Below, piece by piece: positions 14,249 through 61,648 of a DNA stretch of 64,000 nt. Each line of letters starts with the position of its first letter. The first letter of the stretch is position 1. The stretch is taken from NCBI GenBank assembly GCA_013178125.1, contig JABLXJ010000002.1, positions 62,001 through 126,000 of the forward strand. The letters run 5' to 3'. Source of the DNA: Bacillota bacterium. GTDB lineage: Bacteria; Bacillota; SHA-98; Ch115; JABLXJ01. A program made the translations under genes and the position numbers. The notes beneath the pieces were generated by a model. That model was not told the DNA's origin. It did no database searches and saw only the letters and a program-made list of their open reading frames with translations.

Positions 14249-14504
14249 CTAATACCAGCCGGATAATTCTAGCCATTGCCACTATCCCCGCCAGATAGTT
14301 TAAACCGATAGCACTATCCTAGCTGGAGAGTTTAAACCATTAGCACTATTCCCGCTGAATAGTTTAAACCACCGACACTATCGCACCAAGATAGTGCTAA
14401 TCATTGACACTGTTCGGGTTGGATAGTTTAAACTACCAACACTATCCCAACCAGACAGTATCAACCAGTGATACTGTCCCTGTCGAATAGTGCTAACGGT
14501 GGGC
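14249..14504. repeat. Phased palindrome array 1 (7-8 units, 32-bp period)
   Basis: Seven palindromes of 19 bp, pattern ACTATY-N7-RATAGT, start at 14281, 14313, 14345, 14377, 14409, 14441 and 14473, always exactly 32 bp apart; an eroded eighth starts near 14249. Spacers of 13 bp often read TTAAACC. Arms change together, for example ACTATC/GATAGT and ACTATT/AATAGT, so the symmetry is kept although the sequence drifts. A period of 32 cannot be protein-coding. The array fills most of the 14114-14586 gap between tRNA-Arg and the epimerase gene; the rest of the gap shows nothing clear. Confidence 0.85.
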
Positions 14505-22753: not shown

Positions 22754-23179
22754 GTTAAGTAAGGTAATAAGTAGGCCTCTATAGACCCCTATGCCGCGGT
22801 GCGGCGCCACTAGGGAGGCACCACCGATGCAACGCTATCCGGAGAGGCGCTACCAGAACCAGAATCGGATCAGATTTTGGGATTTTGGGATGTGGCATAT
22901 GTTCCGGGAGGGACTGGCTCTCAGCTCTCCCGGAACATATGCGGGGGTCGGGAATTAACCAGTTGCGGCTGACAGGCGCCAAAAGGCTTGCCGGGCAGAC
23001 CGGCATGCCGCATAAGCGGCGCCATCAGAGAATGAAAATGGGTTTAGCTGGGATAACATCTATCTTCGGGATAGACGAGCCGGAATTAGGCAGAATCAGA
23101 CAAAATCAGGTCGAATCAGGCAAACTAGGCGAACCGGGCAAACCGGGCGTTAACTGTGGTGTTGCTCATAGGAAAGGTG
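22754..23179. other. Intergenic gap of locus 2: hairpin and degenerate repeats
   Basis: This 426-base gap holds the strong hairpin at 22895-22942 (separate entry) and, at about 23090-23152, a run of degenerate ~10-base units of the kind AATCAGGCAAAC / GAACCGGGCAAA. I see no coding region; an apparent open frame crossing it has no recognisable content. Confidence 0.5.
22895..22942 (+). terminator. Perfect 16-bp hairpin between binding protein and permease (locus 2)
   Basis: GCATATGTTCCGGGAG (22895-22910) and its exact complement (22927-22942) enclose 16 bases. It lacks a T-run, so it is probably an mRNA-stabilising or attenuating hairpin after the binding-protein gene. Confidence 0.7.
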
Positions 23180-38305: not shown

Positions 38306-38354
38306 TTATATCAACCCAATAAAATGCCTTACTAAAACCTTGCTAAACCGGTCT

Positions 38355-38482
38355 TCTTATCTAGAGAAGGGGAGGGACGGGCCCGATGAGCCTTCGGCAA
38401 CAACCGGCGTCCGGCACCGTGCCGCGCCCGGCGCTGGGAATGTGCCAATTCCTGCAGGATGGGTGCATCCTGGGAGATAAGA
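38355..38482 (+). promoter_or_regulatory. SAM-I riboswitch (S-box)
   Basis: The leader has the SAM-I hallmarks: P1 strands TCTTATC (38355-38361) and GATAAGA (38476-38482), the GGGAGGGACGGGCCCGATGA segment, CTTCGGCAACAACCGGC of P2/kink-turn, and GTGCCAATTCCTGCAGGAT in the P3/P4 region. SAM binding would stabilise P1 and free the following terminator. The 3' P1 strand with AAGAGGAGG can pair with CCTCTTCTT of the terminator, giving an antiterminator. Confidence 0.93.
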
Positions 38483-38496
38483 GGAGGGACCGTACT

Positions 38497-50645: not shown

Positions 50646-51103
50646 TTCGAGGTATTATTCTAGGCTGTTGGTTTTTTCCGGCTTTTGGCGACGTCGATTT
50701 TCTCTAGCTTCTGGCAGCTCAGTTTAGTAAAGTCCTAGCAAATTGTCGTTGGGCGTGGGTAAATTGGTAGCCGGTTGGAGGAAGTCAACAGTCTCAGTAT
50801 TCGAGTGGATAAACAGGCATAGCTCTCGTCGCCTGTCTCCACCCTCAAGCCGGGGTCCGCAAACCCTGTGACGAGGTGCTTTCGCACGGTCTCATTTGCG
50901 GTATTTATGGGAATGTTTATGGTTATGTTAATTCAGGGGCCCTCAGATAGAATCCATCGGCTAGGTAAACCCCCGGCTAGGCAAGTCCTCGGCCAGGCGT
51001 GCGGGCTTTCCGTAGGCTTTCTATGGACTTCCATTGTTAAAGGACTTCCATTTGCGGCTGTGACGCTAGGCAATAGGTTGGGGCGGGGCAGACCGTCCCC
51101 ACC
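50646..51103. other. Gene-free stretch before array 3
   Basis: No gene is evident after the C_GCAxxG_C_C gene. Runs such as CCCCCGGCTAGGCAAGTCCTC (about 50970) show short repeats. Apparent open frames have no recognised content. Confidence 0.4.
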
Positions 51104-51516
51104 CTGCAAAGAAACTTGGCAGTCTAATTCCCATCCTACCTAGAAAATAGACATTACCCCAGCTAAGGCCATTTTCATTCCCTGCTGGTGCCGCCCAAGG
51201 CGGCATGGGCGTCTGCCAAGAAATTTGGCAGGCTGACCCCTGAGCGCGGCAAAACTGCAAAGAATCTTGGCACCTTTACGCGCGACCTGCCAAGAAAGTT
51301 GGCACTTTCACCTTTGACTAGGGCAAACTGCCAAGAATATTGGCAGGAAGGGCGAGCAGTTGCCCAGAATCTTGGCATCTTCACCTTCAACCTGCCAAGA
51401 AGGTTGCCACATTCACCTCTTTACCGGGACATCCTGCCAAGATTCTTGGCAGGATGGACGAATGACTGCCCATAAATTTGGCACCCCTGCACGTAGCCTG
51501 CCAAGAAAGTTGGCAT
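51104..51516. repeat. Phased palindrome array 3 (TGCCAA...TTGGCA, 10 units)
   Basis: About ten copies of an 18-bp near-palindrome CTGCCAAGAA-NN-TTGGCA start at 51104, 51213, 51255, 51287, 51328, 51360, 51392, 51434, 51466 and 51498. After the first gap the steps are 42, 32, 41, 32, 32, 42, 32, 32 bp. Spacers of 14 or 23-24 bp differ in sequence; only the palindrome and the step size are kept. Both steps are close to whole turns of B-DNA (3 and 4). Small open frames over it are made by the repeats. 51517-51804 shows no further unit and no gene. Confidence 0.9.
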
Positions 51517-51804
51517 TGCGCATGATTTACGCATGATTGACGCATGATTAGGCTTGGACGCATGCTTGGGGAGTAAAAACTATCAGAACTTACGAAACGC
51601 ACTACTGAGACCGTCGGTTATTACCCCTGACTGGCATGGTATATTGCGGGTATAACGAAACCGTGCAAGCTTAAAAGAATCGAGCCGCACCACTATGTGA
51701 ATGATTTGCACAGCAGCTGGAGAAAACCGACGGTCCCAGTACTAGTCAGTACTAGGTGGAGGCAGCGGCAAGTATGAAGACAGAAAGTATGGAGGAAAGG
51801 ATAG

Positions 51805-53154: not shown

Positions 53155-53310
53155 GTCCTTTATTTGTGGGTATGGACCAACACTATAGCCCCGTTTACCT
53201 CCCTCTGCCTAATATTTCTCAACTTATGATATAAATTCTTATATTGCTGCTAGGATTTGAGTACACCTCATCTCCCATCCCTCAGCCCCTATCCCTCATC
53301 ATCCTCATCA
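53155..53310. other. Gap before array 2
   Basis: AT- and C-rich bases with no gene or terminator I can support between the TPR gene and array 2. Confidence 0.4.
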
Positions 53311-53585
53311 TGCTGCAGCTTGTAGCATACTTTTTGAAAACATGCTGCAAAGAGTAGCACATTTTTTAAGAACGTGCTGTAACCAGTAGCATCAGACCCA
53401 TCGATGCTACTGATTGCAGCATGTTTTTCCGGGACATGCTGCGGTCTGCAGTATGTTTTCTAAAGATATGCTGTAATGAGTAGCATCGATATCCCCGATG
53501 CTGCAGATTGCAGCACATTCCGCCAGAACATGCTGCGTAGTGTAGCATGTTTTTCATAGATATGCTGCGATCTGCAGCACGTCCA
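53311..53585. repeat. Phased palindrome array 2 (TGCTGC...GCAGCA, 9 units)
   Basis: Nine palindromes of 17 bp, pattern TGCTRY-N5-RYAGCA, start at 53311, 53343, 53375, 53405, 53437, 53469, 53499, 53531 and 53563. The steps are 32, 32, 30, 32, 32, 30, 32, 32 bp. Spacers are often T-rich (TGTTTTT...). Arms tolerate TGC/TAC changes but keep outer TGCT/AGCA. Not coding. The array lies between the TPR gene and the GntR gene, and its layout is like arrays 1 and 3 with a different core. Confidence 0.9.
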
Positions 53586-60417: not shown

Positions 60418-61371
60418 ATGAACGACCGTGTGACGATCACGACCGGTGGGTATAGTATAAACCCTGGACAGGTGTCAGTACGTGCCGGACTGAATAAACA
60501 GCAGGGGAGAAACGGGCAGCAGGAGAGAAATAGCGCCCGCAGGCGAAAGATAGCCTCAACGTTGAGCTCGGTAACCGCAACATATCTCTTGCTGGCGGTC
60601 ATCCTGGTGCCTTTCATCTGGCTGATATTTACTTCTTTCAAATTCCCTGTTGAATTTCTGAGCTGGCCTCCGACGTTCCTCCCGAGGAGCCTGACCATTG
60701 AGAACTATCGCAGAGTGCTCCACCAGCCTCTCCTCCTGAATTATTTCGCCAACACCTTCATAGTCGCCAGCGCTTCGACATTGCTGGCGCTGGCAGTGGG
60801 GTCGGCAGCTGCCTATAGCCTGACCAACGTGAAGTTCCCGGCGAGGTTAAACGCCATCTTTGCCGTATGGGTCCTGATTACGCGCATGTACCCTGCGATC
60901 GCTACGGCTGTCCCGTATTTTATGCTTATAAAGAATCTGGGTCTTTTGGACCACAGGCTGGCCCTGATCATCACCTACACCAGCTTCAACCTTCCATTGG
61001 TTATCTGGTTTATGCTGGGTTTCTTTCAGGGCTTGCCCGAAGAGATCAACAACGCCGCTATTGTTGATGGATGCAGCCTCTGGCAACGCTTTTTCAAAAT
61101 AGGCTTGCCCCTTGCAGCTCCGGGGCTCGTCACATCTGCGATCCTTTCCTTTATACTTGGGTGGAATGAATTCCTGTTCGCCGTGATCCTGACATCCATC
61201 AAGGCCAAGACTGTGCCTGTCGTGGTTGCGGGCTTCATCACCGATAAGGGTCTGGAGTGGGGCGAGATGTCCGCTCTCGGCAGCATGTTGGTGATCCCGG
61301 TCATCATCCTGGCGTGGCTGGCCCAGAAGTATTTGATCCAGGGGCTGACATTCGGGGCGCTAAAGGAGTAG
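60418..61371 (+). CDS. Carbohydrate ABC transporter permease, MalG-like (locus 5)
   Basis: A 317-residue membrane protein with a polar head (NKQQGRNGQQERNSARRRK) of about 45 residues before the first helix YLLLAVILVPFIWLIFTSFK. The EAA loop is EINNAAIVDGCSLWQRFFKI with LPLAAPG; the end is KYLIQGLTFGALKE. In place of the usual 'EEAA' the first residues are INNAA. AGAGGAGAG precedes ATG 60418; ATG 60400 (overlapping the previous stop) is another possible start. Confidence 0.9.
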   Translation: MNDRVTITTGGYSINPGQVSVRAGLNKQQGRNGQQERNSARRRKIASTLSSVTATYLLLAVILVPFIWLIFTSFKFPVEFLSWPPTFLPRSLTIENYRRVLHQPLLLNYFANTFIVASASTLLALAVGSAAAYSLTNVKFPARLNAIFAVWVLITRMYPAIATAVPYFMLIKNLGLLDHRLALIITYTSFNLPLVIWFMLGFFQGLPEEINNAAIVDGCSLWQRFFKIGLPLAAPGLVTSAILSFILGWNEFLFAVILTSIKAKTVPVVVAGFITDKGLEWGEMSALGSMLVIPVIILAWLAQKYLIQGLTFGALKE

Positions 61372-61648
61372 CCGTATATATAGATGCCAAGCCCAGAGTT
61401 CAATAAACGTGCTGTTTCGCCGGTGCCGGCGTTCCGCATATATTCTGCGCCTGGTTCAATTCTGAGCTTGGTTATCTACAGCTGCGTGGGTCAGCAGTTG
61501 GGTGGGCCGGATTATTTCGAGATCTAGGGCGGGGTTGTTGCTCTCAGCGGACTGAAGGCTTGGAAAAGCGTGCCACATTATTGCTATGATTACGACAGAT
61601 TAGGATATAGAATTTGACACGGGACGTAGATATGGGGGGGCGAGCCGA

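Follow-up and report, generated by a model that had tools for sequence, protein, structure and literature searches.

The closest described counterparts of the locus presented here belong to several systems. Paired enhancer sites of the NtrC type are 17-bp dyads with a 5-bp centre, spaced by about 32 bp (three helical turns) and placed upstream of one promoter. The parS site of the F plasmid (sopC, ParABS type Ia) consists of twelve tandem repeats of 43 bp, most of which carry a 16-bp dyad bound by dimers, at one plasmid locus that has a dedicated ParB. CRISPR arrays are likewise formed of palindromic repeats at regular spacing. MITEs and small mobile intergenic repeats, such as the enterobacterial RU elements, are short, non-coding, dispersed, intergenic sequences with shared end modules. 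REP sequences and their BIME composites, known from REP-associated tyrosine transposases, are dispersed intergenic palindromic repeats that form regularly spaced composites and bind proteins (PMC2817692). Literature searches on phased intergenic palindromes gave only general surveys of REPs and stem-loops.

The locus lies in a window of 64,000 nucleotides (the whole stretch of DNA analyzed) from a Bacillota bacterium. A motif search on its forward strand located ten dyads of 17 bp, TGCCAA-N5-TTGGCA, in a non-coding stretch of about 410 bp (51105-51515) that we call array 3, each with no or one mismatch to the consensus. They start at positions 51105, 51214, 51256, 51288, 51329, 51361, 51393, 51435, 51467, and 51499. 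The original prediction had described ten palindromes of 18 bp; the ten palindromes are real, and the length had to be corrected to 17 bp, the dyad reading TGCCAAGAA-NN-TTGGCA with an asymmetrically filled centre (GAAWN). With up to two mismatches, the window holds 12 matches to the motif compared to 2.97 expected, a number reached in none of 100 dinucleotide shuffles. Successive sites are separated by steps of 109, 42, 32, 41, 32, 32, 42, 32, and 32 bp, those after the first being exactly as predicted. The first site, TGCAAAGAAACTTGGCA (51105-51121, plus strand), is also the opening site in most complete copies of the array. The long first step holds an insertion, a copy of a second repeat of about 75 bp that is likewise dispersed (CTACCTAGAAAATAG...GGCATGGGCGTC, approximately 51136-51213, plus strand). 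The insertion takes the first site out of phase with the helix, and the identical junction occurs at a second locus (L057). The nine remaining sites form a core (51214-51515, plus strand) of higher-order units of 32+32+41/42 bp that exhibits about 77-88% identity with the other copies compared. It is followed by a 3' module (51516-51606, plus strand) made of GCGCATG repeats and then GGGGAGTAAAAACTATCAGAACTTACGAAACG, common to five other loci (L054, L058, L060, L063, and L064).

The host genome (3.48 Mb, 54 contigs) harbors 48 exact motifs that group into about 15 arrays, found on contigs C1, C2 (two), C3, C4, C5, C7, C8 (four), C10, C13, and C16, with a degenerate one on C18; these copies are intergenic and lie scattered on at least 11 contigs. 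When 400 kb of sampled host sequence was searched de novo for tandem dyads, no additional array with four or more sites emerged, and shuffled sequence gave none either. The spacer in a given slot is conserved from copy to copy (for example CCTTTACGCGCGACC, GGATGAGCGAGTNNC, and CTTTCACCTTTGACCGGGGCAAAC), and the arrays are thus copies of one element built of higher-order units of 32+32+41/42 = 105/106 bp. Many of them share modules at the 5' side (AGCTCTGCGCCGGACCTGTTACGTCG) and the 3' side (GCGCATG...GGGGAGCAAAGACTATCAGAACTTATGAAACGAAG), and the arrays of L058 and L062 are 96% identical. A coding repeat was rejected since the 105/106-bp unit mixes reading frames. The spacers had been described as non-conserved, which holds within one array and fails between the copies of the genome. 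As worded, the related claim that the spacers are unimportant is incorrect, because each array belongs to a set of dispersed copies among which the spacers are conserved. Such conservation goes beyond what a pure phase model requires, and recent copying explains it. In contrast to CRISPR arrays, the spacers are short, shared between arrays slot by slot and drifting with them, the dyads are not identical, and the flanking genes examined are housekeeping genes with no cas gene among them.

Copies differ by 4-28% substitutions and by almost no small indels. Pairwise comparison of nine arrays yielded about 1,460 summed substitutions against only nine 1-bp gaps, in pairs that are not independent and in a count that leaves aside one 5-bp junction shift (L064) and two larger gaps. 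Unlike the array bodies, the flanking 5' and 3' modules exhibited many indels in the same comparison.

The steps were tabulated over the 86 successive intervals of the TGCCAA arrays of the host, 82 of which measure 32 bp (n = 49), 33 bp (n = 3), 41/42 bp (n = 29), or 106 bp (n = 1); the exceptions, of 40 bp (L055), 36 bp (L064), and 109 bp (twice, in the window and in L057), are out of phase. Much of this common spacing is due to inheritance, because arrays within a genome derive from one another by copying, and the independent support for phase comes from the comparison between families, which covers few lineages, some of them possibly of shared ancestry. The TGGTAA arrays of a congener (G001) present steps of 31, 32, 33, 42, and 53 bp, and the TGGCAA/TGCCAA arrays of a genome from another family of the same class (G009) steps of 32, 41, 52, 73, and 84 bp. 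Fermentithermobacillaceae carry TGCCAAC arrays with steps of 41/42 bp, runs of 9-16 sites, and spacers of 40-67% identity. Spacer identity in Bu31 is down to about 40%, yet 14 of the 15 steps are exactly 42 bp, and an array of Methylococcaceae shows steps of 21, 42, and 63 bp. Further families that count toward this comparison are those of two other arrays of the window, 1 and 2, and of a weak TGGCGA array of a relative (G003), all described below. Over the different dyads and lineages, step lengths are therefore 21, 31/32, 41/42, 52/53, 63, 73, 84, or 94 bp, classes that agree with a periodicity of 10.4-10.5 bp (vector length of about 0.94). The five unique step classes alone give p ~0.0005 against uniform steps of 20-60 bp, a rough value given that the classes were hand-chosen and some lineages may share ancestry. 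The same test on the contig scan alone is weaker (p ~0.02) when a 36-bp match from Myxococcales is included; this match was set aside as it looks like coding sequence (36 bp being 12 codons). The original prediction expected steps elsewhere in the genome to favor multiples of ~10.5 bp, and this tendency was recovered in other arrays and lineages, with few of the lineages independent and with exceptions at 36, 40, and 109 bp. A phased protein-binding array, as had been proposed, is supported as the putative identity of array 3 by the phase of the steps elsewhere, by lengths that are kept as the sequence drifts, and by arms that mutate independently.

From these comparisons of sequence, we consider it slightly favored (probability of about 0.55) that the dispersed repeat is a platform on which a dimeric protein binds cooperatively at many sites. 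Each 17-bp dyad would be read as two half-sites on double-stranded DNA by a homodimeric protein with sequence specificity, steps of about three or four helical turns would bring successive dimers onto one face of the helix, and contacts between neighboring dimers would let them assemble cooperatively into a single nucleoprotein complex, which may organize or mark the DNA rather than control one gene. Duplication or transposition would have copied the platform to about 15 intergenic places, and the related platforms of the host and its relatives, with other dyads and the same geometry, would have arisen as if paralogous proteins had changed their specificity. No candidate binding protein was found.

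More tentatively, the class of the host, represented by 17 genomes, could carry a previously undescribed chromosomal element, namely dispersed phased arrays of 17-19-bp dyads (families TGCCAA, ATGCTGC, ACTATCC, TGGTAA, and TGGCGA) that share one geometry and would be bound by rapidly diversifying cooperative DNA-binding proteins, the system being either chromosome-organizing or selfish, with site and protein co-evolving. If true, the comparison of non-coding sequence alone would have revealed an assembly of protein and DNA in which the rules of spacing (three, four, or five turns) persist from family to family while the recognized word changes. Such an assembly would offer a natural experiment in how proteins come together cooperatively on DNA, and might be a new chromosome-organizing or selfish system in little-studied bacteria.

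Among the alternatives, the one that survives best, although we regard it as rather unlikely, is a mobile or selfish repeat of intergenic regions, non-autonomous and similar to MITEs or REPs. Its palindromes would be transposase or recombination signals, and its regular steps would go back to an ancestral unit that was duplicated in tandem. Its dispersion at unrelated loci is in line with such an origin: the neighbors of the arrays at the loci examined are housekeeping genes functionally unrelated to one another, including serine hydroxymethyltransferase and pyruvate:ferredoxin oxidoreductase, a peptide-chain release factor, a carboxylase, and transport genes, and arrays even stand inside the cobD-cobS gene pair and between a gene for an AIR-synthase/SelD-like protein and selA. 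The occurrence of arrays is patchy among relatives, and at the one orthologous site compared, on contig C117 of G001, the two genes that flank the L061 array are present with no array between them, the intergenic sequence being unrelated so that gain and loss are indistinguishable. The near identity of L058 and L062 and the shared 5' and 3' modules, which suggest defined ends, also agree with mobility. On the other hand, no inverted match was seen by eye between the aligned 5' and 3' modules, whose exact ends are not defined, and no transposase gene adjoins any array examined. As far as seen, the motif thus does not look like an insertion sequence end, an outcome that the original prediction had named as speaking against it. 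Moreover, spacers drift while step lengths stay, and different motifs use the same multiples of the helical turn. Compared to MITEs, the arrays lack visible terminal inverted repeats and their body is a phased dyad array. They also differ from REPs and BIMEs, for which regular spacing with alternating orientation has been reported, by dyads that share one orientation within an array, by steps that are multiples of the turn, and by arms without significant covariation in six families and with almost no G-U pair in array 3, which is not the conserved hairpin-forming palindrome typical of REPs. Searches of plasmids, phages, and viral contigs gave no array match, and an origin from any of these was rejected. 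A mobile repeat is compatible with a binding platform, and the element may be both.

The original prediction had also suggested ParR/centromere-like or partition sites, and sites at which a ParB/Noc-type protein would act in partition or nucleoid occlusion appear improbable. The layout of F-plasmid parS is close to that of the 41/42-bp arrays of Fermentithermobacillaceae, but the arrays differ from it by their many dispersed chromosomal copies, their 5-bp free centre, their mixed 32/42-bp steps in the host, and the lack of any link found with ParB. Canonical parS sites, TGTTTCACGTGAAACA, are located at positions 183821 and 183986 of contig C5 and adjoin parB at C5:184163; the arrays lie elsewhere and carry a different dyad. 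Furthermore, the two main ParB_N proteins are the same in array-bearing and array-free genomes, and this main set of ParB_N proteins does not follow the occurrence of the arrays. ParB partition is unlikely because of these canonical sites beside parB, on another contig than the window, and of the main ParB pair shared with array-free relatives. The scattering of arrays on at least 11 contigs and their patchy distribution argue in the same direction, and a canonical partition site is not supported.

RNA or single-strand DNA hairpins working in transcripts are still less probable. Arms of 6-7 bp do flank a 5-nt centre, and about 11 of the 15 arrays are oriented like the upstream gene, which is not significant. 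In six families of 16-29 sites each, however, Watson-Crick pairing between arms showed no significant excess over arms shuffled among sites (p 0.07 to 1.0). The mismatched pairs at the six arm positions of array 3 include a single G-U, the others being A-C or transversion mismatches, and a search of Rfam gave no match for the array. The absence of significant covariation between arms, the scarcity of wobble pairs, and the lack of any Rfam match disfavor hairpins, and the palindromes look like double-stranded protein sites; because the arms do not covary, a dimer would probably read two independent half-sites on double-stranded DNA. Operator clusters of one transcription factor for the adjacent genes, which the dyad length, centre, and spacing of NtrC-type sites and two-site pairs at 32 bp in a Parachlamydia contig and an alphaproteobacterium contig could suggest, are equally improbable, and a regulon operator was rejected, since the flanking genes have no common function, several arrays sit behind genes or between convergent genes, and 6-16 sites per dispersed array are excessive compared to a pair upstream of one promoter.

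Two sister arrays occur in the window, and the families as a whole are patchily distributed among relatives, that of array 3 being common to the host, G001, and G009. Array 1 (14281-14491, plus strand) consists of seven dyads ACTATCC-N5-GGATAGT at a constant step of 32 bp; it is single in the host genome, with several copies in a relative of the same order (G003), and lies near a tRNA gene on the minus strand. Array 2 (53310-53580, plus strand), with nine dyads ATGCTGC-N5-GCAGCAT and steps of 32, 32, and 30 bp (94 bp, or nine turns), is located upstream of a GntR/UTRA regulator and is dispersed in the host, with other copies on C1, C3, C6, C8, and C12 and one match in G003. An unselected stretch of G003 (L234, 6449-6812) presents a weak dyad array, TGGCGA-N5-TCGCCA, with steps of 32, 62, 32, and 32 bp. 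In G001 (contig C88, 1-1150, L170) a TGGTAA array stands behind the ortholog of the laccase-domain gene of the window, a position approximately that of array 3, but the intervening genes differ.

Other repeats were noticed in the window. The second dispersed repeat of about 75 bp contains nested inverted segments and is present at 23004-23074 as well as within array 3 at 51136-51213, with further copies at L053, L054, L058, L063, and L125 and in G001. A repeat of about 103 bp (50693-50795) has more than 12 copies in G001 at 76-82% identity, and short repeats at 2608-2700 and 61367-61477 have further copies elsewhere in the genome. Finally, a SAM riboswitch (Rfam RF00162) is located at 38354-38483.
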